From Chaetoderma sp. LZ-2023a (Eukaryota; Mollusca; Caudofoveata; Chaetodermatida; Chaetodermatidae), in assembly GCA_034401795.1 (NCBI GenBank), contig CM067371.1:77971333-78035332 (forward strand): a DNA stretch of 64,000 bases, written 5' to 3'. Below the pieces are notes generated by a model that was given only the letters and a program-made list of their open reading frames with translations, was not told where the DNA came from and did not search any database. Positions 12,841 through 60,920 of this stretch are shown in pieces. Each line of letters opens with the position of its first letter. Position 1 is the first letter of the stretch. The translations under genes were made by a program, and so were the position numbers.

Positions 12841-12973
12841 AAATGTCTATTTGCAGGCCAAGAAGACTATTTTTGAAAATTTACCACTGGTATGCCTGGC
12901 TCGATAACCGAGCCAGTCCTTCCAGTGGTAACATTTTTTTAAAAGTCATCTCTTGGCATGCAAATGGACATTA
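12841..12973. repeat. Type-A hairpin MITE, copy A3
   Basis: The arms AAATGTCTATTTGCAGGCCA and TGCAAATGGACATT enclose AATTTACCACTGGTATGCCT. The nested tip CTGGCTCGATAACCGAGCCAG is itself palindromic. CTGCAGTGGTCTTGAG stands to the left, as in other copies. Confidence 0.85.
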
Positions 12974-13102
12974 AATAAGCAAACATTTTGAATTTCCTGA
13001 CCAAATTTGACCATAAAAGAGTTAAAAGTTATATATACCACATGTTCAAGAGATAATATGCTTAAAGGAGAATCTCCTGGTGAATGAAAGAAAATCTGAG
13101 AA

Positions 13103-16773: not shown

Positions 16774-18850
16774 TTGTGTCATGTCATGTTATTATACGGA
16801 AGGATGTGTCTGAATGGGGAGAAAGATGACACCTTCACGCCGGTCTCCTCCGTAAGTACCAACTTTGTTGGGAAACTAAGTCATCAAGGATTGCGGGCCG
16901 ACATCAGCATACAGAGGCAACTCTGTGATTATGTCTATCCTTCTTCAAACAAAAAACTGTGCTCGACATCCAGCACCATAGGTGTTCTTAAAAACAACAA
17001 AACTAGGTATACTGACGACCCTCTAGTAGTAAAACTGTCAGCAGAGCAGAAAGCGTTACGGCTGCGCATCTATCAGTGGCCAAAATGAAGACCGAACCAA
17101 ACTACGCCGGGAGCGCAATATTATTCTGCGCCACATTAGCGACTCCCTAGCAGATGAAATCACTGCCACAGATGACTGTCACAAAATGTTTCTGGCAGCC
17201 CGAACCTTGAGAGTTCCTGACTACACACCACCACTCACTGTACACAACTCTGAAGAACACTTTATCGGGACTGACCAGGGATACTAGGTATACTGACGAT
17301 CCTCTAGTAGTAAAACTGTCAGCAGAGCAGAAAGTGTTACGGCTGCGCATCTATCAGTGGCCAAAATGAAGACCGAACCAAACTACGCCGGGAACGCAAT
17401 ATTATTCTGCGCCACATTAGCGACTCCCTAGCAGATGAAATCACTGCCACGGATGACTGTCACAAAATGTTTCGGGCAGCCCATTCCTTGAGAGTTACTG
17501 ACTACACACCACCACTCGCTGTACACAACTCTGAAGGACACTTTATCGGGACTGACCAGGGAAAAGCTGAGGCGACCCGAGAATGGTTCAAGGAACAGTT
17601 CACTGACAACGATGATGAGCCTTTGCACCCATTCTCAGGAGACCCCAGGCCATTACTAACACCAATTAAAACAGCAGACGTTGAGAAGGCACTTAAAGCC
17701 CTGACAAATGGACATGCATCTGGACCTGATGGCATGAGCAATGAACTACTCAAATATGCAAGTGACATTATCTCAAAACCCATCACGCACCTAATCAATT
17801 CAGCTTTTATGCACCACCTTCCCATCGACGCTGTAGGCCAAGGCACCCTTATCGCACTACCCAAGCCCAAGAAGCCACCTGGTCCCCCAGCCAATCTGCG
17901 GCCCATTGTGCTCCTCAACAGCACACGGAAAATCCTATCCAATATTACGCTATGCCGCATCCGAGACAAGATCGATTACTTCACCGGATCATGTCAGTGG
18001 CTTCAAACGTGGACGCAGCTGCACAAACATTGTATGGGCTCAACGTATGCTTGTGTCGGTGATCATGTCCAAACACTGGGACTTCCACAAAATGGGCATT
18101 GACATGTCACGAGCCTTTGACACAATTAAACGCTCAAAGATCCTAGATGTACTACGTCAGGCCAGTTACAATGAAGATGAGCTACGACTAGTGAGACTAC
18201 TGTTTGCAGACACCAAGCTGAGAGTAAGAGTCAAGTCAGTGAAGTCTGTAGAGTTTGAGACATCAATTGGCTTCCCACAGGGAGATGGTCTAATTCCGGT
18301 GCTTTTCACCCGCTACCTTGCTGCCACATTGAAATCTGTGCGGGAAAGTTCCACAAGACCAAACCCCCCAGTGCCAATACTGGGTATGCTGCTAGAGATG
18401 GAATATGCCGACAATGTGGACTTCATAGACGAGGAAAAGATACCTCTTGATGAACTTCTCCCAATAGCCGCAAGCAAACTAAAAATTGAGAATCTCTTTA
18501 TGAATGAATCCAAAACAGAGTTCACCCACATATACCTATCGACTATAGAAAATGATGACCCACAAGATGCGTAATACGTCGCCGCTGTCTGTAAAAGTCA
18601 CCCAGCAAAGATGGTCCATGTTTGGCTATGTACTAAGGATGCCCGAAGAGACACCAACACAGAGACCTGGAATTCGCCATACTCGGAGAGGATGTCATTG
18701 CATAAATCTGCTAAGCGTACTATGAGGTGACCTCAAGATAACAGGACTCGGTACAATCAAGTCAAGAATGGACCTGAGGAAGCTAAGGATTTCGGCTGAG
18801 GACACGACATAGTGGGCAAAAGCGAACTGATTGCAGCTGTAGGATGTTTC
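16774..18850 (+). pseudogene. Non-LTR retrotransposon reverse transcriptase, broken
   Basis: The upstream part reads KLSAEQKALRLRIYQ and RRERNIILRHISDSLADEIT in shifting frames. The RT domain begins with TNGHASGPDGMSNELLKYAS (about 17705-17765) and continues LRPIVLLNSTRKIL. A frameshift near 17990 leads to SGFKRGRSCTNIVWAQRML, KMGIDMSRAFDTIKRSKIL (palm motif A) and GFPQGDGLIPVLF. The catalytic box reads YADN where YADD is expected (about 18405-18420), so one metal-binding aspartate is lost. After a stop at 18572-18574 the frame WSMFGYVLRMPEETPTQRPG shows the worn C-terminal part. A 281-bp tandem duplication lies inside. No endonuclease domain is visible. The clade is not assigned. Confidence 0.85.
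17002..17563 (+). repeat. 281-bp tandem duplication inside the RT relic
   Basis: ACTAGGTATACTGACGA begins at 17002 and again at 17283. The two copies differ at only a few bases up to GGGACTGACCAGGGA. The duplication is young compared with the surrounding decay and breaks the frame. Confidence 0.9.
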
Positions 18851-18899: not shown

Positions 18900-20440
18900 G
18901 TGGGCCACGTATGCATAAGATATAAACTCCTAAGTTGAGTTAAACTCAAAATGTTAGTTTTAGATAAAGACTAGGTTTTAGCAGGGAAACAGTGATCTTG
19001 ACCTTTGACATTTTGACTCCAAGGTCTCGTGTGCCATTCCCACTCATGATAAAGAAGCATGTGTCCGGTATGGCTAAGCAAACATGAGATATAAACAGTC
19101 GAGCTAAACACAAAACGTTACCGCTGAAAAAAAGGTTTTTCCTAAGATCACAATGACCTTGGACCTTTTGACCCCAAAGGATATTGTCATTATAAGGAAT
19201 CAAGTGTTTAAGTTTGGGATGATGAACCAATCATGAGATATGAACTACTAAGTTGAGCTAAACGCAAAATGTTAATGCTGAAAAAACAGTCATTTAACAA
19301 TATCAAAATAATATTGACCGTTGACCATGTAACCCAAAGGTCATTGTGTCATGCACTCTCCTTATAAAGAAGCATCTGTCCAAGTTTGTGTGCAGGAGGA
19401 TTAATCATACATGAGATATTAACTGCTGAGCTGAGCCAAACACAAAATGTTAATGGTGAAAAAAACCTTTTACGAATTTCACAATAACCTTGTCGTTTTG
19501 ACCCCAACATCATTGTGTGATGCCCTCCAATTATAAGGAAGTAATAGTATGTGTACATGGTTTGGTTCAGTATACTTAACCAAAGATGAAATATGAACTG
19601 CTATGTTGAGCTAATGGCAAAACGTTAATATTGAAAAAGCAAAGTTGACCAAGCGCCCTTGACCGTGGACCATTTGACCCATTATACGGAAGCATGTATC
19701 CAAGTTTGGGTATAATTAACCACAGTTCAAATATGAACTGTTAAGTCGAACTAAACGGAAAATGTTAATGTTGAAAATACAAAGTTTTACCAAGTTCACA
19801 ATGACCTTTCCCTTTGACCCCACAATTATTGTGTAATGCTCTGTCATTGTAAAGTAGCATGTGTCCAAGTTTAGGTCCAGTATGCTTAACCCAAGGTGAG
19901 ATATAAACTGCTAAGTTGGGCTAAATAGAAAATGTTAATGGAAAAAACCCCAAGGTTTTTTTTTACCAATGTCATAATGAACTTTGACCTTTTGACCCTG
20001 TCATTATATGATGCTGTGTCATTATAAGGAAGCATGTGTCCAAGTTTGGGTCCAGTGTCCTTAACCAAACATGAGACATAAAAAGAAAAGTTGAGCTAAA
20101 TGGAAAATGTTACTGTTGAACAAAACCAATGTTTTTACCAAGATCACAGTGACCTTGAGCTTTGACCTTAGCTCATTGTGTCATGCCAGGTCAATATAAG
20201 GAAGCATGCATCCAAGTTTGGGTCCAATATAATTAGCCAAACATGAGATATAAACAGAAAAGTTGAGCTAAATGGAAAATGTTAATGTTGAGATACCCAA
20301 GGTTTTTGCCAAGGTCACAGTGACGTTGACCTTTGACCTTTTGACACAATGCTCATCGTGTGATGCCATGTCATTATAACGAATGTGTCCAGTACGATTA
20401 ACCAAACATGAGATATAAATATAAAAGTTGAGCTAAATGC
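18900..20440. repeat. Satellite array, about 175-185 bp units, TGACCTTTTGACC type
   Basis: Seven to eight units carry AATGACCTTNNNCCTTTTGACC, ATTGTGTCATGCC, TATAAGGAAGCATGTGTCCA, AACCAAACATGAGATATAAA and AGTTGAGCTAAACGCAAAAT. The array is related to, yet distinct from, the one at 15490-16425. It ends near GACAACGCAGCTTGCAGCAC. Minus-strand frames over it are repeat artefacts. Confidence 0.85.
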
Positions 20441-20444
20441 AAAT

Positions 20445-20989
20445 TAGACAACGCAGCTTGCAGCACCACCGCTGCAGGACGACAACGTGCAGGGTATCAC
20501 AATAACTCATTTCACTTCATAAAATCGAGCTGAAAATGGTCAATAAAAACATTTACTAAGTATTAGTAATAAGGATAGATATTTAATGGTAAAGATATCT
20601 CAATAAAATTGAAATTATTTTTTGGGAAACAGAAGCTGCTAAACATCAGAAAAGAATGGCCTTTGAGATATCTCCTCAAAGTTCAGCTCATATATGCCAT
20701 ACATCACATTGAGGGTAAAATTAAGCATTTTCATCACACCAAATTGTGTAATAACACGGGAGCCAATTGCACAAAATGTATAGGTGTGCTAGAATTCTGA
20801 ATAGCTTCTTTCAAATCCCTGTAACCTTTAAGTCGCCCAAAAACAGCTTTTGTTGTGATCTTGAGAAATGTCCATTTGCAGACCAATGTATGATTAGTTT
20901 TGAAAATTTACCACAGGAAAAGCCTGACCAAAAATTGGGATGCTTCGCCCACAACCCATAATAACTGTATGCATGTAAAGTTTCACTAT
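20445..20989. other. Spacer with one half of a type-A hairpin
   Basis: TGTGATCTTGAGAAATGTCC, then ATTTGCAGACCAATG and TTGAAAATTTACCAC at about 20855-20913, form the left arm of a type-A MITE with no right arm before the large element at 20990. The MITE was probably cut by insertion or deletion. The remainder is unassigned. Confidence 0.55.
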
Positions 20990-21297
20990 AGTAGGGTTCA
21001 CTATGTATTTTCGTTCAGAATTTTTGTGGATTTGTAACACTATATATTTTTGGAAAGCATTTTATATGCCAGTTTCAAAAACCAATGTTTGCATTTGCAT
21101 AAATGCCTTCATGGCGGCCATCTTGAATTTTCAAAATGGCCACCATCTAAATCCTTCGAAATCCAATATATCTGCAACCATGTACCCTAAATTCACAATT
21201 TTGATGTCTATATCTAGGTTTTCTGGGTCAACGAATGCATTGGTAACATTTATAATAAACTTCAAGTGCCAGAAATAATGTTTTGGTTGATAAGTCC
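20990..21297 (+). repeat. Left terminal inverted repeat of the 5.7 kb element
   Basis: It pairs with 26416-26733, from AGGGTTCACTATGT at the outer edge to ATGTTTTGGTTGATAAGTCC at the inner edge. It holds a nested ATGGCGGCCATCTTGAA / TTTTCAAAATGGCCACCAT palindrome. Confidence 0.85.
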
Positions 21298-21723
21298 CAA
21301 AATAATAAGCAATTCTCACACAACATCTGCAAATGTCGCACCTTTTATCTAAATCAATATTTGTTACAATATTTAACGGTAACAGTAGCCCATAGTAATC
21401 CTATAGAGGGGATAGAATTACGATATAGCCCAATGGCCTGTTATCTACGTAATCACATTGTCATCATGTTTATTAATAAACATATTATGACAGAGTATGT
21501 ATATGGTGAGCGGCGTGTCACAATTTTACAATAATGGATGGCCCAGGGTAATTTTCAAATTCACCAGCAAAAGTAAACTGAAAGCAAATTTTTGCAGAAA
21601 AGTTGTTCAAATGATTATCTGCTCATAGATTTGCAATAAGCATAATCAGACAGCAATAATCTTCAGGATTATCGTTTGTAATCTTGCAATAAGCATTGAT
21701 CAAATATATTTTGTCATCAAATC

Positions 21724-24700
21724 ATGAGCGATGTACAGCTTGATGCAACACAGGAGTTAACAAACTGGAAGCTATTCATTTTATGCCAGACAGATGCTAC
21801 TGTTAAAGGACCAATGGTGCAGCATCCAAGAATAGACTCATTTACCAATTTGTTAACAGTCTAAGAGAGTGCAACATTGAAAGATGGTTCATACATTGAA
21901 ATTCAGAAAAGACTTAGACTTTGCACATATGGTGACCTATCTCACATAAAGCGGGTTGGCATCGCAGTTGTTACTCTACTGCCACTAACAAAGAAGAAAT
22001 ACAACGTGCACGAAATCGTATAGAGGATGCACTATCTAGTGGGTCTTACATTACTAAGAAACGTGGGATAAAGAGGAAAAATGCTATTGATGAGGCATCG
22101 ACATCAACTTCAGTATTTACACGTTCCTCGACAATTCCACTGTGTAAGGAACTGTGTTTCTTCTGCCAGACAGACGATCATAATCAGCAGTTGTTCAAAT
22201 TACGAACTCATAATGCTGGTAAAGCCCTAAGAGATGACATAGAAATAACATATATAAACATGTTTGACCGTAAATCCTTGGACAATCATTCACCTACATT
22301 TAGTAGGCAGTGGCTGAAAGAGAAAATCCTTTCTGAGCTAAATCATGTAAGATCTGTCCTTCAAAAGGACAGGCGCAAGTGTGCCGTTCTGTACTCGCTA
22401 GAAGCATGTGAGGAAGAAATGGTTCATTCTGCGATGTGTGAAGATGATGGTATGGAAGGCATGAAGGCAATCTATATGGCAGCACAGATTGTTCGAAAAA
22501 GCATCACAACATTCACTAAGAATGATGGTGAACCTGGTTCAGTCCTTGTTTCCAGCAATATGGATGACATCCCATGTGAACTATACACACTGATACGATG
22601 GATAATGGTTGGACCTGTAGATAGTTTGGATAGCAAAACCAGAGAGTGTCTCGTTGATAGAGCAGTGCTTACATCTTGTCAAACCCTCATGTTTGGACTT
22701 AAATCGGATAGGCAAGTGATGCATAAACCTAAAGCTGCCTCTTCTGAAAAATTCAAATCCCAGCAAAAGAGAAAATTCTCAGGTTCTAGGATTGGCATTG
22801 TCTGTGCATCACGACACCAGGAATAAGAAGATTGTGAATCTTCTTCATGCACAGAACTGTTGCATATCCTACCACCGTACCATGCTTCTAGAAACAGCAA
22901 TAGCTAACTCGGTTGTCGAAAACATGAGACAATTCAATAATCTGTATGTACCACCATTTCTAAAGAAAGGGACATTTGTTTTCTTTGCTGTGGACAACAC
23001 CGATTTTGCTGAGGATACCATTGATGGTAAAGGTACTACACATGGAACAATTGTTGCAGTCTATCAAAAAGCTTCTGCACCTGGGGAATCCATTGCACCA
23101 CCTTTAAACATTGGTGATGCAAAGAGCTTATCCATTACACCTCAACACACATCTATGTTGCCATGCGTCAAACCAAAGGCTCAACCTGGAATGCAAAGTA
23201 ATTTTGTGTTGAGTAAAACCGGTGTTGCAGACTCTTATCAGCTGACCCATATGGGTTGGGTCATAGCATCTGTTGTTACGAGGATGGATGAAAGGAAAGA
23301 GATGTGTTTGGTTCCTGGGTGGGCTGGGTATAATTCACTCCTGTCATCAAGTAGATCTCTAACCAATGTTTGTGCATTGCCTCTTCTCCCAGAGCTGGCT
23401 CATGAATGGTCAACGCTAATGACTGTAATTAAACAAGCACAAACATTGAAGGAGATGGCTGTTGGTAAAGACCATCTAACAGTCATTACTTTTGACATGG
23501 CCCTGTATGAGAAAGCAGTGCAGCTTGTAGATGTCAACGCCAATTTAAAGAGTGGTGTTATCCCAAGACTTGGTGAACTCCATGTCGTCATGGCTGCATT
23601 GAGAGCTCTCTGTACTTCTATTGAGAATTCCGGAATAGACGATGCATGGATCGAGGCTGATGTCTTTAGCTCTACCACAACGACACAAATCCTGAAATGC
23701 AAGCACTACTCACGTTCTCTTCATGCTCATATCTACTCTTACATCGCATTGTATGAACTGGTCTTTGACGAATTCTTCAAAGAGTATCCAAATCTAAGGG
23801 ATGCATGCATATCAGCTACAGATGACATAGAAGAGGCATGCAGTAAATCAAACCAAGCCAGCCAGGCAGAATCAGTGATGCCGGCTCATCGCAATCTTCT
23901 CCAAGTGCTGTCTAATACTGATATGCTGAATCTCTTTCAGACATGGGTGACAAAGAGGTCCCAACATGCGATGTTCAAGTCATTAATGAACTATCTGCAC
24001 CGTGTGGAAACAATCCTTTTCTTTGTCGCAGCATCCTGAAATACTGATCTGACCCTTCATCTTGAAGCTGGAGAAGCACTGAGCAAGTTATTCTTTGCTT
24101 TTGATAGAATCAAATACAAACGTCTTTGGCCAAGATACATAGCAGATATGTATGCACTCAAGCAGAATCATCCAGACACATGGCAAGAATTTGAAACTGA
24201 AAACATTGCAGTGACTAAGAATGACATTCCATTCACTTCAACTGGTGCGGATCATGCATGTGAGCATCTGAACAAAATGATGAAAGTGCACTCAGGACTA
24301 ATTGGAATATCTAACAATGCAAATGCGAGACAGCGATTTTTCCTCGCTGCTCCAGAATTGGCACGGTTATCCCGGGAATTCAAGTGTCAATTTGATTTGC
24401 AAGAAGACAAGGTCAGAGATCACCATGGCATTGGAGCAAGTGCTGTTAAACATGAACACACCACAATCGACAAGATAAAGGCTGCCATACTGACTCATGG
24501 TAATCCTTTCGCTGCTGAAGGTGACATGATCTACAACATTATCTCACTTGCTTATGTATCACAAGAGTCGGTACCACAAATCCTGGATGTAGACGAAAGA
24601 GGACAGACATTATATGAAGAGTATGTGAAAGAGCGCATTAATGGAGAGGTAAGCCTTTGGGCACCAGTGAAGCGTGAGAAAAACAAGATGTATACATCTG

Positions 24701-26258
24701 GAAACAAAAAGACAACAGTACGTATTCGTGACAAAGCTGTTGATCTCAAGGAAACTAAAGAGCTATATGCTAGGCTGATGATTCTCGCAAAGACGAGTCG
24801 AGACATTTATTTGAAGTATTCGATCGGCAACTTTGAATTCACACTGACACTGAGGGCGCTGTTTGCTCCGTGTGGCTCTGTCCTACAGTGCACCGACAAG
24901 TCGAAGTTAATCAAGCTCCTGACTGACCTACCACAAACCGAGAGCACAGAGGATTCACTCTTATTAGGTGCAACAGAAGCAACTGCCGTCACAACTAAGG
25001 AATCTAGTAGGAGAATCGCAGTTGTGGATGGAATGGTTCTTGTCCAGAAGCTGGCAAAGAAACCAGCAACTATTGTGACAGTCAACGACCATAGTAAAAG
25101 TTTTAATGACAGGTTAATGAGTCTGACAGCAGGATATGATGAGATCATTCTTGTATTTGATACATATCAAGCAGATTCCCTGAAAAACACGACCAGAGAG
25201 AAACGACGACATGGGAATGATCCAATTAGATATCAAGTTAAAGATGATACCAGTATCAAGCATATCCCTATGACAAGATTTTTGTCTCATGACCAAACAA
25301 AGCATGACCTTGCGCAGTATCTGGCAGAGAAGACTATTGAGTACAATAAAGACTCATCTACCTTGGGCATAGCATCAGGCCAGATGATAAGTAATAGAAG
25401 CCTACATTTTGAGAACAACAATCATGAGGAAGCTGATACATTAATGATCTATCATGCCATATGTGCAACACAGCGAAATCTTGATACATCAGACACTGAT
25501 GTCTTAGTGCTGGCAATAGCATATTATGACAATCTACCTAAGAATACGTCTATCTCAATGGTTTCTGGTACCATTAAGCTATGGCCTATATGGAAAACTC
25601 TAGGCATGGAGAAAGTAAGAGCATTACCCGCATTCTATGCCTTTACTGGAGCAGACAATATTGGCAGGTTCGCTAGGATAGGTAAATCAACATGGTTAAA
25701 GCTTTTCCTAAAGGCAGACAGCGATGTAATCGACGCTCTGATAAATTTATCGAGAAGCACTGAGGTCACAGATGAGCTACTTTCAACTCTGGCAAAATTT
25801 GTGTGTGCTGAATACTGTCCAAAGTCTATTAGAATCGAGAACATCCCAGAGTTACGTTGGCATTTATTCTGTAAGCAGCTTGCTGATAGTGAGTCTACCG
25901 CCTACTATTGGTGCTTTGAAACAGCATGTCCTTAGAGTACAAGTCCAGGCAAATGTGTGGGGTCAGGCAGACATTTCACATCATGTGTTTCTGGATCCAC
26001 TACAGAATGGATACTATGAGGAGACAGGTGGCCAACCAAAGGCAAAAACAACAGATGTTTTACCAGCTCCAGTCTCTCATTGAGATGGTTAGGTGTCAAT
26101 GCAAATCGAATTGTTCCTCTCATCGATGCTCGTGCAAATCCAAAGACTTACCATGCACTGAGCTTTGTCAATGCAGCGCAGAGTGTGAAAATGATGATGA
26201 CTCAATCGTTGATGTCTCTATATCAGATGATGAAGATGACGCCAATGTTGCTAGGTAG
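21724..26258 (+). pseudogene. Multidomain PIN/FEN-like nuclease plus CXC protein, frameshifted
   Basis: The reading starts at ATG 21724 (MSDVQLDATQELTNWKLFIL, with a CxxTD element) and soon meets TAA near 21862. N-terminal text GWHRSCYSTATNKEEIQRA and CKELCFFCQTDDHNQQLFKL shows paired Cys/His zinc-type motifs. Then follow three long blocks: 22191-22826, 22792-24039 (VPPFLKKGTFVFFAVDNTDF, ITFDMALYEKAVQLVD, PRLGELHVVMAAL) and 24148-25935. In the last, DGMVL, DEIILVFDTY, NNHEEADTLM, SDTDVLVLA and AFTGADN resemble the acidic-residue order of PIN/FEN-fold nucleases. A final frame holds LPPTIGALKQHVLRVQ and the tail VRCQCKSNCSSHRCSCKSKD with CTELCQC (tesmin/CXC-like, 26087-26190). At least five frame breaks exist (about 21862, 21960, 22800, 24030, 25930). 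The family is abundant in invertebrates to my memory, without an assigned function. A link to transposition is inferred from the inverted repeats. Confidence 0.7.
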
Positions 26259-26415
26259 ACAGCAACTGATGCAGCACATTGATTGTTGCTTGAATACTTA
26301 GATTAAATTCGTGAGATAACTCTGTTATATGCCAAATAAAATTTATCATTGCAACATTATCACAAAAAGTTACAAATTTGCAGATGCTGTCTGTAAATTA
26401 CATATTAAGTCAGGA

Positions 26416-26733
26416 CTTATCTACCAAAACATGATTTCTGTTATTTGAAGTTTATTATAAATGTTACCAATGCATTCACTGACCCAGAAAACATAGATAT
26501 AGACATCAAAATTATTAATCTAGGTCATATGGTTGCAGATATATTGGATTTCAAAGATTTTCGATGGCGGCCATTTTGAAATTCAAGATGGCCGCCATGA
26601 AGACTTTTGTGCAAATGCAAACATTGGTTTTTGAAATTGACACATTAAAAGCTTTCCGAAAATATATAGTTTTACAAATCCCCAAAAATTCTGAATGGAA
26701 AAAATATTTTTTACACTGACCCTGACTACTAAT
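26416..26733 (-). repeat. Right terminal inverted repeat of the 5.7 kb element
   Basis: This is the complement of 20990-21297. The match runs from GGACTTATCTACCAAAACAT at the inner edge to CACTGACCCT at the outer edge. Confidence 0.85.
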
Positions 26734-33888: not shown

Positions 33889-35545
33889 CACCTGTGCAAA
33901 AGTTAAGCACCACCCTATTTTTACGCACATGCGAGGGTATATTCATGTGCTATGAAGAAAGCAATAGCATAAACATTTATGTACCCATCCATCTTAGTGC
34001 AAGAGGTAATAATGCAACTAGAGGAATGCTGATCATGATGGTGGGGAAACACTGTATGTTTTTGTTTGAACTTGAAAACGAGGCCTGAATATGGTTACGT
34101 TGACACAACTGACAACTATTGCCCTACAGTTGACACACGTGGCTAGATTGTCATTAATGGTGTCTGAAAACGAAGTTTAACATCTGTGCACGAGTTTGAG
34201 ACTGTCATTATTAATACCGGGTATATCCACCTTGTGCCTGGATGACGGCCTGGACACGACGTCTCATGCTGGTCACCAACCGACTGATACGCCATTGTGG
34301 TATTCGTTGCCATTCAAGATGGAGTGCGTCTGTTAATTCCTGTAGGTTCTGCACAGGAGGATCCCTCCTTCTCACCATGTTTCCCAGAATGTCCCAGATA
34401 TGCTCAATAGGGTTCATGTCAGGGCTCCTTGCTGGCCATGGTAGAGTTTCGATGGCATTCTGGCGGAGGTATTCATGCACAGCTCTAGCACGATGTGGTC
34501 GGGCGTTGTCATCCATGAATATAGGGTGGGTTCCAGGTGCATGATTTACAAAATGAGGGACCACAACTCTATCCAGTATGGAATCTTGATATCTTTGTCC
34601 ATTTAGTGTTCCAGGTACAGTCAACAGATCCAGCTTACAATCAAATGAGATGCACCCCCATATCATAACGGAACCTCCACCAAATGGAACTTCTTCCATG
34701 ATGTTACGTTGGTCGTATGCCGTGCGTCTGGACCTCCATACACGAGTTCGACCATCTGTGGCATGAAGCAGGAACCGACTTTCATCGGACCAGTGTACCC
34801 GTCTCCAGGATCTCATGTTCCAGTGTCTTCTTTCGTTGCACCACCTCAGACGCTCCTCTTTGTGGTGTGCAGTGAGGAGAGGACGTCTGACAGGTCTCCT
34901 AGCTTTCATGCCAGCAGCATACAGTCTCCTTTTGACGGTAGACATTGACACTCTATTGCGCGTTTCCCATTGCTGGCTGAGAACTCTGCTGTTGGTGAAT
35001 GGAGATCTCCTAACAAGGCGTACTAGGGCCCGATCATCACGGGCAGTAGTCTTCTTCGGTCTTCCAGATCTAGGCCTGTCCTTCACCTCGTTAGTTTTCC
35101 CATGTTTTGCAATCAAACGACTGATTACAGTATGGTTAATGTTCAGCTGTCTGCCAATCTCTCTGCATGACATACCAGTGGTATGCATGCCTATGATTTG
35201 CCATTTCACACGATCACTTAACCTTCGTCTTGCCATAGCGGTTCACAATCAAGAGCTAATTCTCTCTGTACAAATAAACCACGGTCATGAACACAAAATT
35301 CCTAATCTTGTCGCCTAAATCTGTATGTAATGTTCTACACCTCAAACTGGACTTTTACATAACTGAACACGTGTGCTGTTTCCCGCCACGCACGGACATC
35401 AAGTGGCGTGAAGTCATGCATGCATGTGCATTTCGTACTTGGAACTATGTCAGCTAACGCGGGGACAAAAAGTATGGCAGCCTAGTTGTACCATCATGTT
35501 TCTACGTTCTATTGTTGTTGCTGGTGCTTAACTTTTGCACAGGTG
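33889..35545 (-). mobile_element. Tc1-like DNA transposon with intact transposase
   Basis: Inverted ends CACCTGTGCAAAAGTTAAGC at 33889 and the complement GCTTAACTTTTGCACAGGTG ending at 35545 stand next to TA on both sides (33887-33888, 35546-35547). The length is 1657 bp, typical of Tc1. It carries one uninterrupted transposase on the minus strand. The flanks join up as one spacer of the hairpin array when the element is removed (compare TTATATACTTGGGTGAGCGA at 33669), which shows a clean insertion at TA. Confidence 0.92.
34211..35236 (-). CDS. Tc1-family transposase, full length, DD34E
   Basis: 341 residues start at ATG 35234-35236 and end at TAA near the left terminal repeat. An N-terminal paired-type helix-turn-helix region (residues about 8-45, CREIGRQLNINHTVISRLIA) is followed by a GRPK-type hook (RPRSGRPKKT, 54-63) and a second helix-turn-helix (about 67-112). 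The catalytic domain shows Asp151 in VHWSDESRF, Asp243 in MDDNARPHRA and Glu278 in SPDMNPIEHIW, with 34 residues between the last two. No stop or shift is seen and the length fits the family. The enzyme would bind the terminal repeats in the nucleus, excise the element and insert it at TA. It may be active or recently active. Confidence 0.93.
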   Translation of the reverse strand: MARRRLSDRVKWQIIGMHTTGMSCREIGRQLNINHTVISRLIAKHGKTNEVKDRPRSGRPKKTTARDDRALVRLVRRSPFTNSRVLSQQWETRNRVSMSTVKRRLYAAGMKARRPVRRPLLTAHHKEERLRWCNERRHWNMRSWRRVHWSDESRFLLHATDGRTRVWRSRRTAYDQRNIMEEVPFGGGSVMIWGCISFDCKLDLLTVPGTLNGQRYQDSILDRVVVPHFVNHAPGTHPIFMDDNARPHRARAVHEYLRQNAIETLPWPARSPDMNPIEHIWDILGNMVRRRDPPVQNLQELTDALHLEWQRIPQWRISRLVTSMRRRVQAVIQAQGGYTRY

Positions 35546-39584: not shown

Positions 39585-39820
39585 TTAACCCTTTCACTCA
39601 TATCAGCCAAAAACGGATTCTGCAGTGGCCCTGAGAAATGTCCATTTGCAGACGAAGAAGTCTATTTTTAAAAATTTACCACTGGAATAACTAGCTCGAT
39701 AACCGCGCCAGTCATTCCATTGGTAAATTTTCAAAAACAGTCTTCTCTTGGTCTGCAAATGGACATTTTCTATGAGAAAATGGAAATTTTCTTCAACAAA
39801 TTCGAGGGTTAAAGGGTTAA
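39585..39820. repeat. Complete type-A MITE with TTAACCCTTTC ends, copy A13
   Basis: It starts TTAACCCTTTCACTCATATC and ends TTCGAGGGTTAAAGGGTTAA. The inner palindrome runs from AATGTCCATTTGCAGACGAA to TTGGTCTGCAAATGGACATT. It lies directly beside copy A12. Confidence 0.85.
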
Positions 39821-46497: not shown

Positions 46498-48911
46498 TAG
46501 AAAAGAGCAAAAGGAAAGAACAGACACCAACACTCACGATGCAATGAAAGTTGACATTACTTTAGCAGAACTGAAGAAGGCTGTCTGCCAATTGAAGAAG
46601 AAGAAATCTCCCGGGCCAGATGGCATTACGAATGAAATGATCCAACACCTTGGTAATGCATCTTTCCGCAAGTTTCTAGACATCTTTAATCTCAGTTGGA
46701 CCAATGGAGAGGTTCCTCAGTGCTGGAAAGAAACCAGAATGACTCCTATTCTGAAAAGAGGGAAGAACAAGACGAAAATGCTGAGCTACCGTCTTATCAG
46801 TCTTACAAGCTGCATATGCAAGACCATGGAGCGCATCATCAACCAGCGGTTGCAGTGGTACCTGGAGTCGGAGAACATTATAGTTTCAGAGCAGGCCGGC
46901 TTCAGAAGATACAGGAGCACAGAAGATCAAACAACACATCTTGCACAGGTCATAGAGGACACTTTTCAAGCCAAGAAGGTGATGCTAGCTGCCTTTATCG
47001 ATCTGCAGAAGGCATTTGACAAGGTGTGGAAGGATGGCCTCCTCGTGAAGCTCCGGCGCACAGGCATCGGTGGCAACATGTTTCGATGGACCAAGTCATA
47101 CCTACACAATCGCAGAGCTAGGGTGCTGGTGGATGGACAATCTGGACAGAATGTATTGCTGAGACACAAGGCGGAGTATTATCACCAACTCTGTTCATAC
47201 TCTTCATTAATGACATTGTAGCAGAGCTGCTCAATGGGATCCAAGCAGCCCTCTATGCAGATGACCTCATACTCTGGTGCACCGAGGAGTACACAACGAC
47301 TGCCACGTACAGAATGCAGCTCGCCTTGGACAGAATTACAGCTTGGGCCAATCGCTGGTGTATTACCATCAACAAAGAAAAATCATCAGCCATGCTATTC
47401 TCACTGTCCACCAAAACCAAGGTTGGCAATCTGACAATGGGCGGTACTCCACTCGAGTACGAGGACCATCAGACATACCTGGGAGTCACCTATGACAGAA
47501 GATTAACATGGAAGGAGCACATCCAGAATGCAGAGGCAAAGGCCAGAAGAAAGCTAAACATCATGAGGAAGCTGGCAGGCACAAAGTGGGGTGCGAATGA
47601 AAGGATCCTCAAGACCATCTACCTAGGTGCTGTACGACCACACCTTGAGTATGGATCCAGCTCATGGATGACAGCAGCTAAATCTCATCAACAGAACCTC
47701 GACAGAGTACAAAACCAGGCACTGCACATCATCACTGGTGGAATGAGATCAACACCAATAGAAAAAATGGAGCAGACAGCAGGCATCCCCCCACTTAGCA
47801 AAGGAAGGGATTGCAAAGCACTGATCCAAGCTGCAAAGTTCAAATCGTTCAACAACCACCCGATGAAGATCAGGCAAGCACAGATGTCATCAGGAAGACT
47901 TAAAAGATCAAGTTTTGTGAAAGAGACAAAAGCACTTCAAAGGAAACACCAAGAAATGTTGCCAGCACAAATAGAAGACCCAAACCACACCCTTGATCCT
48001 CCACCCTGGCAAAAAAACAAACTAGAGAGCATAGCTATTCGCACCACAGTACCTCATCTCACAACCAAAGATGAACACAGTGATGTGAGCAAGAAGGCCC
48101 TGACCCTAGCCATGCTGGAAGAAATGTACCCTCAGGAGACATGGATAAGGATCTACACAGATGGATCAGCCAAAGATGCAATTAGGAGTGGAGGTGCTGG
48201 ACTGCACATACAGTATCCAAACGGACAACATGAGTCAGCTGCAATACCGACAGGCAAACACTGCACAAACTACAGAGCTGAAGTCGAAGCACTGGTTCAT
48301 GCAGCTAATACCATCAGCAGAACAGCAGACCCTATTGCACAGATTGTCTTTTTATCTGATGCCCGCTCCGTCCTCGAGGTAAGATGCCACAACTTGAAGA
48401 AGCACTACAAACCATCAAATGCTTTCGGATAGCACTGCAGTGGATCCCCTCACACTGTGGAGTCCAAGGAAATGAGGAAGCAGACAAGATGGCAAAGGTG
48501 GGTGCAGAAGAGAATCAGACAGAAAACATGGTTACCCATACAGAGATGAAGACTATCATCAAGTCACTCTATAGAACACCTCAATCAGAAGATGCCTACC
48601 ATCATCTCTCGAGGCCAGAGCAAGTGACCATTTTTCGTCTTAGAACTGGACACAACAGACTAAACAAACACATGTACAGGCGGTTCCACCTTACGACATC
48701 ACCCGCTTGTCCTTGTGGAGAAGCAGAACAGACCACAGAGCACATACTTCAATGTTGCAGTACGTATCAGCTGCTGAGAGAAGAGATCTGGCCTTTGTCA
48801 ACCTCTTTTCTTGAAAAACTGTATGGGCCTGTGGAAGAACCGCAGAAAACCACAGATTTCATCTTGAGAACGGCTCTCCAAGTGTGATACCAGCGATCGA
48901 AAAGAAGAAGA
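46498..48911 (+). mobile_element. 5'-truncated LINE (RT plus RNase H) with 13-bp target duplication
   Basis: ATGAAGAATGTGT stands at 46485-46497 and again at 48912-48924, an exact 13-bp target duplication. The element begins without an endonuclease region and ends CGAAAAGAAGAAG. Insertion by target-primed reverse transcription with 5' truncation fits all of this. The flanks belong to one satellite array. Confidence 0.9.
46544..48887 (+). pseudogene. LINE ORF2 fragment: reverse transcriptase and RNase H
   Basis: RT motifs run from KKKKSPGPDGITNEMIQHLG through AAFIDLQKAFDKVWKDG (motif A). A frameshift near 47160 leads to GGVLSPTLFILFINDI, then LYADDLILW with the intact YADD box at 47254-47265, and DHQTYLGVTYDRRLTWKEHI. 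An RNase H domain follows at about 48140-48500: WIRIYTDGSAKD, YRAEVEALVHAA, FLSDARSVLE, a second frameshift near 48380, then LQWIPSHCGVQGNEEADKMA. A Cys-rich CPCGEAEQTTEHILQC lies near 48710-48760, and the stop is at 48885-48887. RT followed by RNase H points to the I/Jockey side of non-LTR elements; the clade is not certain. Only two frame breaks, so the insertion is fairly young. Confidence 0.9.
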
Positions 48912-50956: not shown

Positions 50957-51022
50957 TGACGCCTGATGTGGGCCTCAAACCCACGACCCCGAGATTAAGA
51001 GTCTCGCGCTCTACTGGCTGAG
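50957..51022 (-). promoter_or_regulatory. Antisense tRNA-Lys(CTT)-like sequence at the primer-binding position
   Basis: Read on the minus strand: D-stem GCTC/GAGC, anticodon arm CGAGA-CTCTTAA-TCTCG with anticodon CTT, and T-arm GTGGG-TTTGAGG-CCCAC, all paired. The 3' acceptor side ATCAGGC is present but its 5' partner is not. So this is not a working tRNA gene. It stands where a retroelement keeps its primer-binding site, and TGACGCCTGATGTGGG on the plus strand resembles a tRNA-Lys primer site. Confidence 0.6.
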
Positions 51023-51072
51023 CCAGAAATTTCCCTGGTGCGGAACAACCAGCACCGATTCAACACAAGTAT

Positions 51073-52150
51073 TTGTCAATCAGCGAGGGGACCTTCCGCA
51101 TTGCCTCGCAGGTGGGTACTCAATACGTCACATTGCGTATAGCCGCGATAGGCACCCAACACCTTTGCCAGATCGCGGTCGACCACAACAAAGACCCCTA
51201 CAGGGGCATGCCAATTCTTCACAACCGTTCACCCATATCATCAGGTGAGCAATGGCCTGTCCCTCATGCACCATGTCCCACATATCTTCCTCTCAGAACG
51301 TCGTCGCCTTATTATCTATCTGTACCACAACATGAATTGGGGGATGCGGAACATCCTTTTCAGTATTATACCAGAAGAAACACCTCATCACACGGCACGC
51401 ACCATCCCGGCCCATCTCCTGGACCACCTCTGTACGAAGAGCACCCGTCACAGCGACCTACGGAACATCTGCATCACATACACGGAACCCCTCCACTAGT
51501 TTATAGACCAACACCCATCTATAGACCCACATCAGGGCGGTATTCAGCGGAATCCACTTATTGCACACATCATCATCAGGAATCACCTTCACAGACGCGA
51601 TATCAACAGTGGGAACAACCACCAACACCACCACCAACACGCAGACCCGCATCTGCGTTTACACCCTTCTCCCAAGCACCGCCACCTGGATTCGCGCCTT
51701 TAGTATCATATCATGGCAATGGCCGGGTCATTCTCCCTCCTGAATTCAGTAGGGAGAATGACTGGGCCAATTGCAAGTGCCAGTTTGAGATCATTAGCCG
51801 CACAAACCGTTGGACGGATCAACAAATGGGAGAGTATCTGGCTGCAACAACAGCCCCGGATGCAGAAACCAGCACAACAATCGACAAAGCATGCACGATA
51901 GGTTGGAAGAGATAATTAAACAGATCTCCGCACTCACTAATTTGGTCACCACCCTCAGCACCACCATCACGACACAATCAACTACATGACCAGCTACAAG
52001 TATGGTAACACATACACAGCCACCAAACACATGTTATGGATGTGGTCAGACAGGCCATTGGAAAGAACGATGCCCAAATCGGCCTCCATCAACAACTCCA
52101 ACAGCTGACTGACGTACACCGCAACCGGAGTTCTCGTTAAACTAGAACGG
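51073..52150 (+). pseudogene. Gypsy gag with CCHC zinc knuckle
   Basis: A Pro/His/Thr-rich N-terminal part (51240-51650) is followed by GFAPLVSYHGNGRVILPPEF and a capsid-like WANCKCQFEIISRTNRW stretch. After a frame change near 51900 a zinc knuckle CYGCGQTGHWKERC (CX2CX4HX4C) stands at 52033-52074. Gag would package the element RNA. The frame is broken, and much of a normal capsid domain seems to be missing between 51900 and 52030. Confidence 0.75.
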
Positions 52151-52657
52151 GTATCGATTATAGTCACTTTGGTGCCCACTCTCACAACCCGGCTCAACTA
52201 CGGCCTCCAGACAACGTCAGGTGGCGAACCTTACAACGCAAAATACTACTTATGCGACAGTACACAACCACACCCACCTGGCTTCACCTGAGTCGGTGCC
52301 GACCATGTGCACTGGATCCGCGGCACCGCCAACATCTCCCTCTGCAAGAGGTTGTGACCCCGCAACCGCAGCATCTCATAAACCTTCTTTCCTATGTAAA
52401 ACGGCAGTGGTTGGTTCTAGCACCTCCACTGAAACAACGTTTATACAAGCACCACGACCCGCCGCCAAAGCACTTAACACATGGTGCCTCTTGGTGGTAT
52501 GCAATTCACAACATCACCCACCGCATCTAGCAGCAGTAACAGTGACACGGACAGCGATCGGCATTCGGCATCATAGATCCGCAAGAAGAAGCATCATCCT
52601 AAGAACGGCAAACCGCAGCGTCGTCACTGCTTCTTTTGCGCATCCACTAAACACCTC

Positions 52658-53368
52658 ATGATGCATTGTCAAAAGTGGCTAACACAGCTGGCTCTTATCC
52701 ACGACCTCACAAGTCCTTTCCAGACTGCTGAAACAAATTCACGATACAGCACACCAGCATCAACACCACCATTGCTACCCCCAGCTCTGTCATTGCCTAA
52801 GCAATCACAGCAGCAGCGACGACGAGTATGTCCCTTCCTCACTCAGCCACTGATTGCACTCACGGAAGCTATCCAAAAGCAAACAGACTACATACAGGAT
52901 GATACTGCACCAAAAGCAATCCCTCAGGCAGTATCATTGGAAACTCTTCCACAAGCACACCGCAAAGTAATATACAAGTGTGCTTGCCTGTTTAGTGGCA
53001 TTTCGACCAGTGCCACCATAGACACTGGAGCTTCCATCATCGTTTTTAACAAGCGCTTGTATGAGAGCATCCCACCTCATAAAAAGCCACCCTTTAGGCC
53101 TAGAAACATATTTTTACAAACAGCTACCGGAGCCGATGTTCCGGTGGTTGGTACGGTAAACCTCGTAATACAGATAGCGGAAATGCAATTCATACAGCGA
53201 GTTGTAATTGCCTCTATTCAAAACTATGCCCTGCTAGGTTCTGACTTCCTCAGTGCCAGCGAAGCCATCATCCATTGCAGACACCGGGAATTAGACCTTA
53301 CCCCTTGGACCGGAATCATCACTGTACGATACTTGTGCAGTGATTTTGGCATCTACGGCCAGAGTTGA
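52658..53368 (+). pseudogene. Gypsy protease region
   Basis: ATIDTGASIIVFNKRLYESI carries the aspartic protease active-site triad motif DTGA (53021-53032). IQNYALLGSDFLSASEAIIH is the usual second block. The upstream 52151-52657 is Thr/Pro/His-rich text of unknown role in changing frames. Confidence 0.8.
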
Positions 53369-54230
53369 GCCGGGACAAGAGGAAATATTATGGGCCACCG
53401 CACCACAGTTAGGAAGCAACACACACACAGCCATGCTGGAACATGACCCCGATTATATGATCGCCTCACAATGCACAAGTCCCTGGATGATTGTGGACAC
53501 CACCAACAAAGATCATATACCATTCAGAGTATTCAATGGCACAGCGGACCCAATAACACTAGTACTCGGAGTTCATTGTGGCCATCTGGTGGATGTGAAA
53601 TCACTGGAGACACCCACTACAGCACCTACACCTTCTGAGGATGATTTACCAGAACATCTGCATGACATTTATTTGCGCGCCACAGTTGGTTTAACTCAAT
53701 CTCACAAATGTCAACAAGTAAATGACATGTTGCGGACAGGCATCATAGAGCCCTCGGCATCCCCATGGGCTAGTCCCATTGTACTAGCATGCAAGAAGGA
53801 TGGATCTTTGTGGTTTTGCATTGACTACCGCCGCCTTAATGATCTTAGCGTCAAAGACACGTATCTGTTACCGCGGATCGATCAGGCCATAGATTCCTTG
53901 TCCAGAGCCAAGTAGTTTTGTACCCTTGACCTTGCTAGTGGGTACTGGCAGTGGCAGGTAGCCATGGATGAGGCTGATCAGGAGAAGACCGCATTCGTAT
54001 GCAGACGGTCTTTTCCAATTCCGCAAGATGCCCTATGGGTTGTGCAATGCTCCTGGAATGTCTTTGGCTCTTCGTTTGAGCAGACCCTGTTCAACTTGGA
54101 CAAGGTCCTAATGCGTTTTCGTACCGCCAACCTCAAGCTCAAACCCAAGAAGCATCATCTTTTTAGACAAAGTGTCGAGTTCCTGGTACACATCATATCT
54201 GGTGATGGAGTAGCTACTTAACCGCCAAAA
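53340..54230 (+). pseudogene. Gypsy reverse transcriptase, with deletions
   Basis: MLRTGIIEPSASPWASPIVL, KKDGSLWFCIDYRRLNDLSV and PRIDQAIDSLS mark the fingers and palm. A stop at 53913-53915 is followed by TLDLASGYWQ in frame. From about 54030 the text passes from the MPYGLCNAP region straight to SFEQTLFNLDKVLMRFR. The block that should hold the catalytic Y-x-D-D box is not visible, so the enzyme is dead. Confidence 0.85.
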
Positions 54231-54426
54231 ACTAAAACAGTAGCGGAGTGCAAACCCCCACTTCAGTCACTGACACCATGAGTTTCCTCGGTCACTGCTA
54301 ATACCATTGTCAATACATCTGTCACTTTAGTGAGATTGCTTCCCCGTTATTCCAAATCACGAAAAGGATCGGCCATTCGAGTGGACGAGTGAGTGTGAAG
54401 GTTCCCTCAGGGCGCTGAAGGAACAT

Positions 54427-55116
54427 TTGACAATGGCACCAATTCTTGCTCATCCTAACCCTAACCTCGATTTCATCTTAGACACTGATACATCTGCTTA
54501 TGCAATAGGTGCAGTTCTATCTCAGGTCACAGTAGACGGAACACAGCAGGTACTGGGTTATGGTTCGCGTACTCTGAATAAGACAGAGAAACGTTATGCA
54601 ACCACTAAGAGGGAATTGTTAGCTGCGGTATATTTTGTCAAATATTACAAGAACTTTCTGTACGGGCACCAATTTACACTCTGTACAGATCACGCCTCAC
54701 TATGCTGGCTCAGAAACCTAAAAAATCTGGAGGGCCAGGTAGCGAGGTGGCAGGAATCCCTGCTGGCCTTTAATTTTAATGTTGTTCATAGACCCGGCAA
54801 ACTGCATGGAAATGCTGATGCCTTGAGCAAAATCAGACTCGAGGATGAACAAGAAGTGGCCACCACCGTGACACACACAGCACAGCCATCTCCCGTGCTC
54901 CCCAAACTGCGGTGCGCAGAGTGGGATCTGGAGACAGTCGCTCACGAACAAGCAACATATGCGCAAACATACAATATATACGTGTGGATCCATGAAGGGG
55001 TACGTCCCCCTAAGGAATCTGTTACCTCACTTGCCGCAATGGCTAAATATTACTATCAAAGGTTTGGAGAATGTCATATACAAGGTGGCATCCTCTCTAC
55101 ATCAATAACCGGATAG
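54427..55116 (+). pseudogene. Gypsy RNase H and linker
   Basis: DFILDTDTSAYAIGAVLSQ, KRYATTKRELLAAVYFVKYY and FTLCTDHASLCWLRN carry the acidic residues of the RNase H fold. VVHRPGKLHGNADALSK closes the domain. The frame is open through the domain, then runs to a stop before integrase. Confidence 0.85.
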
Positions 55117-59439: not shown

Positions 59440-60340
59440 CATCAGCAACACAGTAAGCTGGCACCAGCACTCCAGCAACCAATACCACAACACCAGCAGC
59501 ACCTGTAAGATCAACACTGGCAGCTCCTGCAACATCCGCACCAGCAGCACCTGCAGTAACCACACCGGTAGCACTCATCACCGCAACAACATCTGCATCC
59601 GTGATCGGACAGCCATTTTCGGTAGTGATAACCACCCCTGTGACAATTAATGATCCAGTATTACAGGACACTTCGGACAGTTCTATATCTCCTATCAGTT
59701 TAGTTATCGACAAGGAGATAGGTCTCACGGAAACCACCATCACCACTTCCGCACCGCATACCAGCATTCTGACATCCACGCGCAGCACCATTGTGTCAGT
59801 AGATCCTGCCAACCGAAAAGTTACCACGCCGGACAGACCGCACTCGGGTAAATGTCGCTTAGCTCACAAACCTGAGATCCGAGCAGTACCTAGAACTACC
59901 TAGAACATCCGCGAGTAGACTTATTAAGGCTGTAAAAATTAGAAAATTATCCGCACCCACTGAAGCAACATCGCAGTGCAACATTTCCGCGACACCCAGC
60001 AAACCACGCGAAAGCACCACTACCACCACCACACAGTGATGACAGCAACCTCGGAATCAGCCACCATCAGGACTCCACATGTAATCGTCACCACCACAAC
60101 AAGTGCATTAACCAACTTATTCGCAACTTCATCACACATGAGCACAGAGAACATTAACATAGACAATGTAATATCAGCACCAAGTAGATCACCCTCCGCG
60201 ACCGTCATGTTCGGATCACGGAACTCAGACTCGCTGGGCCTACTTTTCAGCAGACACTTGTGGCCATTATTGCCGTGGATGCAGCAGAATGTTTATGTAG
60301 GTGTGCGGAAAAAGGAACTATTATATTTTTATTTTTGAAA
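59440..60340 (+). other. Thr/Ala/Pro/Ser-rich coding-like stretch
   Basis: Frames of low complexity (TPAAPVRSTLAAPATSAPAA and similar) run behind the zinc-finger ORF with stops between. This may be the worn continuation of that gene. The 213-residue minus-strand frame across it is its mirror and not a gene. Confidence 0.35.
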
Positions 60341-60920
60341 TATTTTTCTTATTATATATGTTTTTAAAATTGAAATCCCGCCCCTTGGCTGACAACGATC
60401 ATCCTACACAGCTATGCAAATTACTGCAAAGCTGTGTCTCAGCAAAATAGTCGCTGCAGATTCCTGTGTTGTAAACACACCATGTATGGTGTAAGTACAC
60501 AACACACAGGTGCAAATATGCCTTATATTCCCATCATGTCATCCCAGCTATTGCTGGGGCTGCCTGATGAACCAGTCTTTATTATTATATACTATTTTTC
60601 TTATTATTTTTCTTCTCGCGTTAGTATGACGCGATGGATTTGGGATGGCGAGAGCCATCTGTGCGGACCCACCCGGGGGGATATAATTGACATGCATATG
60701 TAATTACTGTATTCATCATCCTGTGATATGTATAAAATATATATACATATATACTGTATTTCTATAACTGTTTTCATATATATATCTGAATTTGGGTACG
60801 TTGGAGCTTGGGCGTTCTCGGCAGAAATTTAATTCTCCGTCACCAAGAAAAGGCCATGCGAGCTATAGTTTAGTTGAATCATGATAATAAACAAAATAAA
60901 AGAGCATGCACTGCAACATC
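60341..60920. other. Non-coding stretch, nothing recognised
   Basis: An AT-rich tract lies at 60715-60790. TCCCAGCTATTGCTGGGGCT near 60543 is a small palindrome. Confidence 0.4.

Follow-up and report, generated by a model that had tools for sequence, protein, structure and literature searches.

Analysis of a 64,000-nucleotide stretch of the genome of the caudofoveate mollusc Chaetoderma sp. LZ-2023a (assembly GCA_034401795.1, 2.44 Gb; contig CM067371.1, C13:77971333-78035332), hereafter the window, revealed a 5740-bp copy of a DNA transposon at window positions 20989-26728, in which one broken gene lies between two inverted arms. We assign the element, with a probability of about 0.82, to a new family of the cut-and-paste Academ superfamily, within its nuclease-bearing AcademX lineage, a placement drawn from published descriptions of Academ. 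The assignment is based on the combination of a DDE transposase, an encoded nuclease, a 3-bp target duplication and an element size that fit those descriptions.

A sequence-only reading of this DNA had already proposed inverted arms enclosing a single gene. It placed the element correctly, but its outer coordinates (20990-26733) were off by 1 and 5 bases and its arms of about 300 bp are in fact about 350 bp long. A two-sequence blastn comparison pairs 21008-21334 with 26376-26701 (87% identity over 327 bp, E 2e-113). With the true termini included, the arms run from 20989 to about 21334 and from about 26376 to 26728 and are 86-87% alike; an alignment over a slightly longer stretch gave 307 identical columns out of 356. 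The element begins and finishes with TAGT...ACTA and is bordered by the same three bases on both sides:

20986..20988, no strand: target-site duplication, left copy (CTA), repeated exactly by the three bases past the right end
20989..21334, + strand: left terminal inverted repeat, starting TAGTAGGGTTCAC, defined by the arm alignments and a terminus common to the copies
26376..26728, - strand: right terminal inverted repeat, finishing CCCTGACTA, defined by the arm alignments and found in 30 of 30 loci
26729..26731, no strand: target-site duplication, right copy (CTA), matching the left copy

Evidence of mobility came from the other copies. A protein search of the host genome gave at least 74 scored matches, the window's own included (scored out of 9357 first-look candidates); some pairs of matches lie on contigs that resemble duplicates of one place (C868/C2067 and C11/C797). 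A left-end sequence of 39 bases, with up to two mismatches allowed, occurs 221 times in the genome (113 forward and 108 reverse), and the reversed pattern used as a control does not occur at all. Eight of these left-end loci were examined, and all eight continue directly into the gene, with no shortened copy among them. The left-end region was examined in 20 other copies and the right-end region in 30 loci, counting the window. The left terminus is the same in 18 of the 20, being lost in L012 and L013, and in 19 of them the left arm precedes the protein match by 3.29-3.44 kb; the window copy, which carries a deletion, has a distance of 3.16 kb. The left arm is absent from L042 (copy L013); L035 has only part of it and L041 lacks the outer bases. 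Every locus showed the right arm, although it is partial in L029, has lost its end in L002 and is 91% identical in L016. Beyond the arms the flanks differ immediately between copies, except for short stretches of dispersed repeats. The arms thus travel with the gene, which rules out that they are unrelated dispersed repeats or a chance pairing.

Alignment of the copies together with their flanks, a check that the sequence-only reading had suggested, fixed the ends and uncovered the target duplication. Twenty-one copies were examined, with the window counted, and three were set aside because an end was lost (the right one in L002, the left one in L012 and L013). In 17 of the remaining 18 the 3-bp duplication is exact; the single failure, L015, has altered last bases. 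When flank partners were shuffled 10,000 times, the mean number of matches was 1.4 and the maximum 7 out of 18. The 17 duplicated triplets are of 14 kinds. A search for empty sites, also suggested earlier, was carried out by joining the 17 pairs of flanks, removing one triplet and looking for the result within the window and the examined loci. Two of the 17 joined flanks (L014 and L019) align straight across the junction. The L014 site is matched in four places, all copies of a dispersed repeat (window 12905-13003 and 39700-39793, L029 4130-4256 and L030 530-624), of which the best reaches 80% over 128 columns and has the triplet once; at 39700-39793 the triplet is TAT instead of TAA. The L019 site is matched at window 60084-60359 (70% over 295 columns), where the triplet is off by one base (CAG for CAA). 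These related empty sites are insertions into older dispersed repeats. Taken together, arms, ends and 3-bp duplications that move with the gene support the view, held by the sequence-only reading too, that the element is a mobile DNA transposon.

The family burst recently. Thirty copies of a 1.8-kb core are pairwise 96.7-100% identical (median 97.7%), which rules out a decayed old family; the pair at 100% is formed by L024 and L025, located on two contigs that resemble duplicates. The relationship is star-like, each of the 30 being 98.3-99.7% identical to the majority of the columns. Differences from that majority are spread evenly over the three codon positions (209/17836, 206/17836 and 200/17837), which fits neutral decay of the copies after the burst. 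Uninterrupted frames persist in L002 (1611 amino acids) and L022 (1604 amino acids); the first has lost its right terminus and the locus of the second includes 373 N. Across copies, identity to the arms of the window copy is 93-98% for left arms and 91-99% for right arms, and the left and right arms of one copy diverge by 12-19%, mostly about 14%. Because this divergence recurs from one copy to the next, and each arm varies less between copies, it predates them; it belongs to the element and does not measure its age.

The gene of the window copy is homologous from 21751 to 26234 to P0131, a relative of 1612 amino acids (tblastn). Since the homology is broken into six pieces in three frames and there is no counterpart of P0131 residues 182-248, this copy is a dead member of the family. 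Its parts are as follows:

21724..22244, + strand: gene start and N-terminal Cys/His region, frameshifted and followed by a deletion (tblastn pieces 21751-21945 and 21942-22244; ATG at 21724)
22191..24264, + strand: DDE (RNase H-like) domain region and the stretch preceding it, interrupted here (AlphaFold model of the relative P0149, VIA matches, conservation)
22993-22995 (D), 23494-23496 (D) and 24262-24264 (E), + strand: candidate catalytic residues (conservation; codons checked)
24148..25935, + strand: longest open piece, 595 amino acids, with the end of the DDE domain, a linker and most of the nuclease (open reading frame and homologues)
25012..25960, + strand: XPG/FEN-type (PIN-like) nuclease, limits approximate, frameshift near 25894 (first acidic residue at 25027-25029)
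26082..26195, + strand: CXC (tesmin/TSO1-like) cysteine-rich tail (PF03638 and conserved cysteine columns)

Relatives of this protein are numerous. Three protein searches were performed, each of which scored the 8000 (or 7999) candidates with the most words in common, and the longest open piece retrieved 143 homologous proteins out of 8000 candidates scored. In full-length relatives the DDE, XPG and CXC parts occur together and in the same order, at identities as low as 25% (alignments A1 and A2). Searches of viral_contigs and genome_contigs found no relatives, and a PDB sequence search with alignment A2 gave chance-level matches only. Within the window itself, positions 1177-1464 hold a diverged C-terminal remnant of a second protein of this kind, with stops, an LPPT-like motif and a CXC tail (31% identity to P0131 residues 1490-1590, E 2e-8). 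Judged from its sequence, a second lineage of such elements probably once lived in the host genome.

The sequence-only reading had seen no DDE transposase of a known superfamily. Contrary to this, the protein does have a DDE domain, RNase H-like and placed ahead of its nuclease. The RNase H-like fold is present in the AlphaFold model of P0149, with VIA matches to P-element, Hermes, ISCth4 and RAG1, the P-element fold being the closest. The candidate D, D and E are kept in 38/38, 38/39 and 38/38 non-gap rows. Foldseek alone returned weak matches for the DDE part and nothing at E <= 0.001. Pfam offers no transposase name for the protein family, only DUF6589 ('unknown function'), which in some relatives overlaps part of the DDE region (alignments A3 and A4; P0175, P0184 and P0186). 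In five relatives picked because a precomputed listing gave them DUF6589, it scored above the cut-off in three, exactly at it in one and below it in one; it was not matched in any of the four window pieces, and in a set of six relatives it was below the cut-off or absent. A third protein search with divergent members as query brought in further relatives, many of them with DUF6589. DUF6589 proteins are probably transposases.

The PIN/FEN-type nuclease announced by the sequence-only reading is supported, and its motifs VVDGM, LVFDTY, HEEADT, DTDVLVLA and TGADN are all present, together with the cysteine-rich tail. An XPG/FEN-type fold and clustered acidic residues identify the domain, all seven acidic positions are conserved across relatives, and the fold is matched far better than in the DDE part. 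Both candidate active sites of the protein are conserved. The profile of the tail stayed below Pfam's cut-off: PF03638 gave E 0.035 in the window copy and E 0.00064 in the relative P0141. It is precomputed for the relative P0155 and the cysteine columns are conserved in the alignment, in agreement with the CXC-like tail described earlier. At the other end of the protein, the Cys/His motifs of the sequence-only reading correspond to columns conserved in alignment A1, where relatives read CxxC...WHRxCY and CFFCQ...YHxxCW; from this pattern the region probably forms two zinc-binding units.

These features suggest how the element may move. A single protein of about 1610 amino acids would bind the ends of about 350 bp, with the zinc-binding units at its N-terminus and the CXC tail as the probable contacts. 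The DDE domain would then free the 3' ends and join them to a target with a 3-bp stagger between its strands. Fold and residues make this step almost certain as a predicted activity, and the 3-bp duplication is itself observed. The XPG/FEN domain would remove the non-transferred 5' strand at excision or trim 5' flaps at the new junctions; for this trimming step the chances appear even.

Academ elements are known for an XPG-type nuclease and for proteins with a Cys-rich finger. The defining papers for Academ and AcademX are reportedly Kapitonov and Jurka 2010 and Kojima 2020. In the parts of the sources consulted, PMC4455052 credits Academ to Kapitonov and Jurka 2010, Repbase counts Academ among the DDD/E superfamilies (PMC9587614), PMC10799480 covers the AcademH helicases as its only Academ matter, and PMC5753468 and PMC9783078 name Academ in lists only. 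According to Kojima 2023 (PMC10045372), AcademH duplicates 9 or 10 bp and AcademX 3 or 4 bp, which seems connected with the helicase or nuclease that they encode; the remark there on the nuclease is limited to this relation. Each of the AcademX marks compared, a DDD/E transposase, a nuclease and a duplication of 3 or 4 bp, was found here. Among the matches listed in the open-licence literature, a scope outside which Repbase falls, no paper describes this element and no title or abstract opening describes a transposon with XPG and CXC; the combination of Academ and XPG gave nothing relevant.

The new class proposed by the sequence-only reading is not supported, given that DDE transposase, nuclease and duplications of 3-4 bp have already been described together for AcademX in the part of PMC10045372 consulted. 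In that proposal the PIN/FEN nuclease would itself be the transposase, and the conservation of all seven acidic positions in relatives and a fold match that exceeds the one for the DDE part by far speak in its favour. Against it, the same protein has a DDE domain that is conserved and resembles P-element, hAT and RAG transposases in fold, which leaves no need for the nuclease to act as the transposase. DDE strand transfer also leaves a duplication of fixed length, here 3 bp; the proposal is rejected as extremely improbable. FEN/EXO1-like nucleases are host repair enzymes, which would agree with the XPG-CXC part being a host-derived passenger, fused to the DDE transposase and dispensable for movement. 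Strict conservation of the nuclease residues and a DDE-XPG-CXC order kept in full-length relatives down to 25% identity argue instead for a long-standing role, and a composite of this kind is very unlikely.

A different possibility is that transposons with DDE, XPG and CXC parts form a separate superfamily, whose likeness to AcademX is limited to the duplication length and the carried nuclease. In favour of this, the likeness to Academ concerns published descriptions and not sequence homology, few published Academ marks are available for matching, and Pfam labels the DDE part only as DUF6589, a name found in no paper of the literature searched. On the other side, transposase, nuclease, 3-bp duplication and size all fit the Academ/AcademX descriptions, and Academ is abundant in bivalves according to the portion of PMC10294476 consulted, and a lineage this numerous would hardly have stayed unclassified. 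The separate superfamily is unlikely, as is the form of it in which a flap nuclease within the transposase would deal with the second strand. To our knowledge, this excision mode is known in no other DDE transposon. Assignment to AcademX is thus preferred.

The remainder of the window contains other repeats. Just left of the transposon, in 20001-20443, a unit of about 170 bp is repeated in tandem, with two to three copies, and includes runs such as CAAGGTCACAGTGACGTTGACCTTTGACCTT. By eye, an open frame of 341 amino acids on the minus strand (34211-35236) resembles Tc1/mariner transposases (WSDES, MDDNARPH, SPDMNPIEH), the frames at 46544-48887 and 17467-18574 resemble reverse transcriptases of the long interspersed nuclear element type (46544-48887 also has a portion like RNase H), and those at 51073-55116 resemble Gypsy-type long terminal repeat elements (protease, reverse transcriptase and RNase H motifs). 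A tRNA match on the minus strand (50968-51025) lies just upstream of the Gypsy-like frames.

The family has two practical consequences. Being young, with about two hundred left ends in one genome, exactly defined termini and, in some of its copies, long open frames, it could serve in laboratory assays of the nuclease's role in Academ transposition. Furthermore, proteins annotated as 'hypothetical', 'uncharacterized' or 'CXC domain' in the gene sets of fish, cnidarians and sea spiders, together with DUF6589 proteins, are probably transposases and not host genes.

Comparison with known systems separates the element from the other superfamilies considered. P elements have an 8-bp duplication and a GTP-binding insertion; the Drosophila P-element transposase is closest in fold, but the 3-bp duplication rules out the P superfamily, and the present protein has an XPG domain in addition. 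The hAT superfamily, which also duplicates 8 bp, is ruled out in the same way. EnSpm/CACTA elements share the 3-bp duplication but end in CACTA or CACTG, and are excluded by the TAGT...ACTA termini, whereas Transib/RAG, with 5-bp duplications and CAC-type termini, is excluded on both counts. The FEN1/EXO1/XPG flap nucleases, at about 11-12% identity, are host repair enzymes, whereas here the domain is part of a transposase in a mobile element. AcademH, a lineage of the same superfamily if the present element is an Academ, combines a helicase with 9-10 bp duplications and is ruled out by the 3-bp duplication and the lack of any helicase above Pfam's cut-off in the window pieces or relatives scanned (one chance-level Helicase_C, E 0.15, in P0148), or among the precomputed Pfam entries of the relatives from the third search. 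For AcademX no difference was established; DDE transposase, encoded nuclease and a duplication of 3 (or 4) bp, here 3 bp, are the same. The length is close as well: in bivalves, where Academ has amplified, the 100 curated elements reported in the part of PMC10294476 consulted have a mean of 5565 bp, against the 5740 bp of the copy described here.

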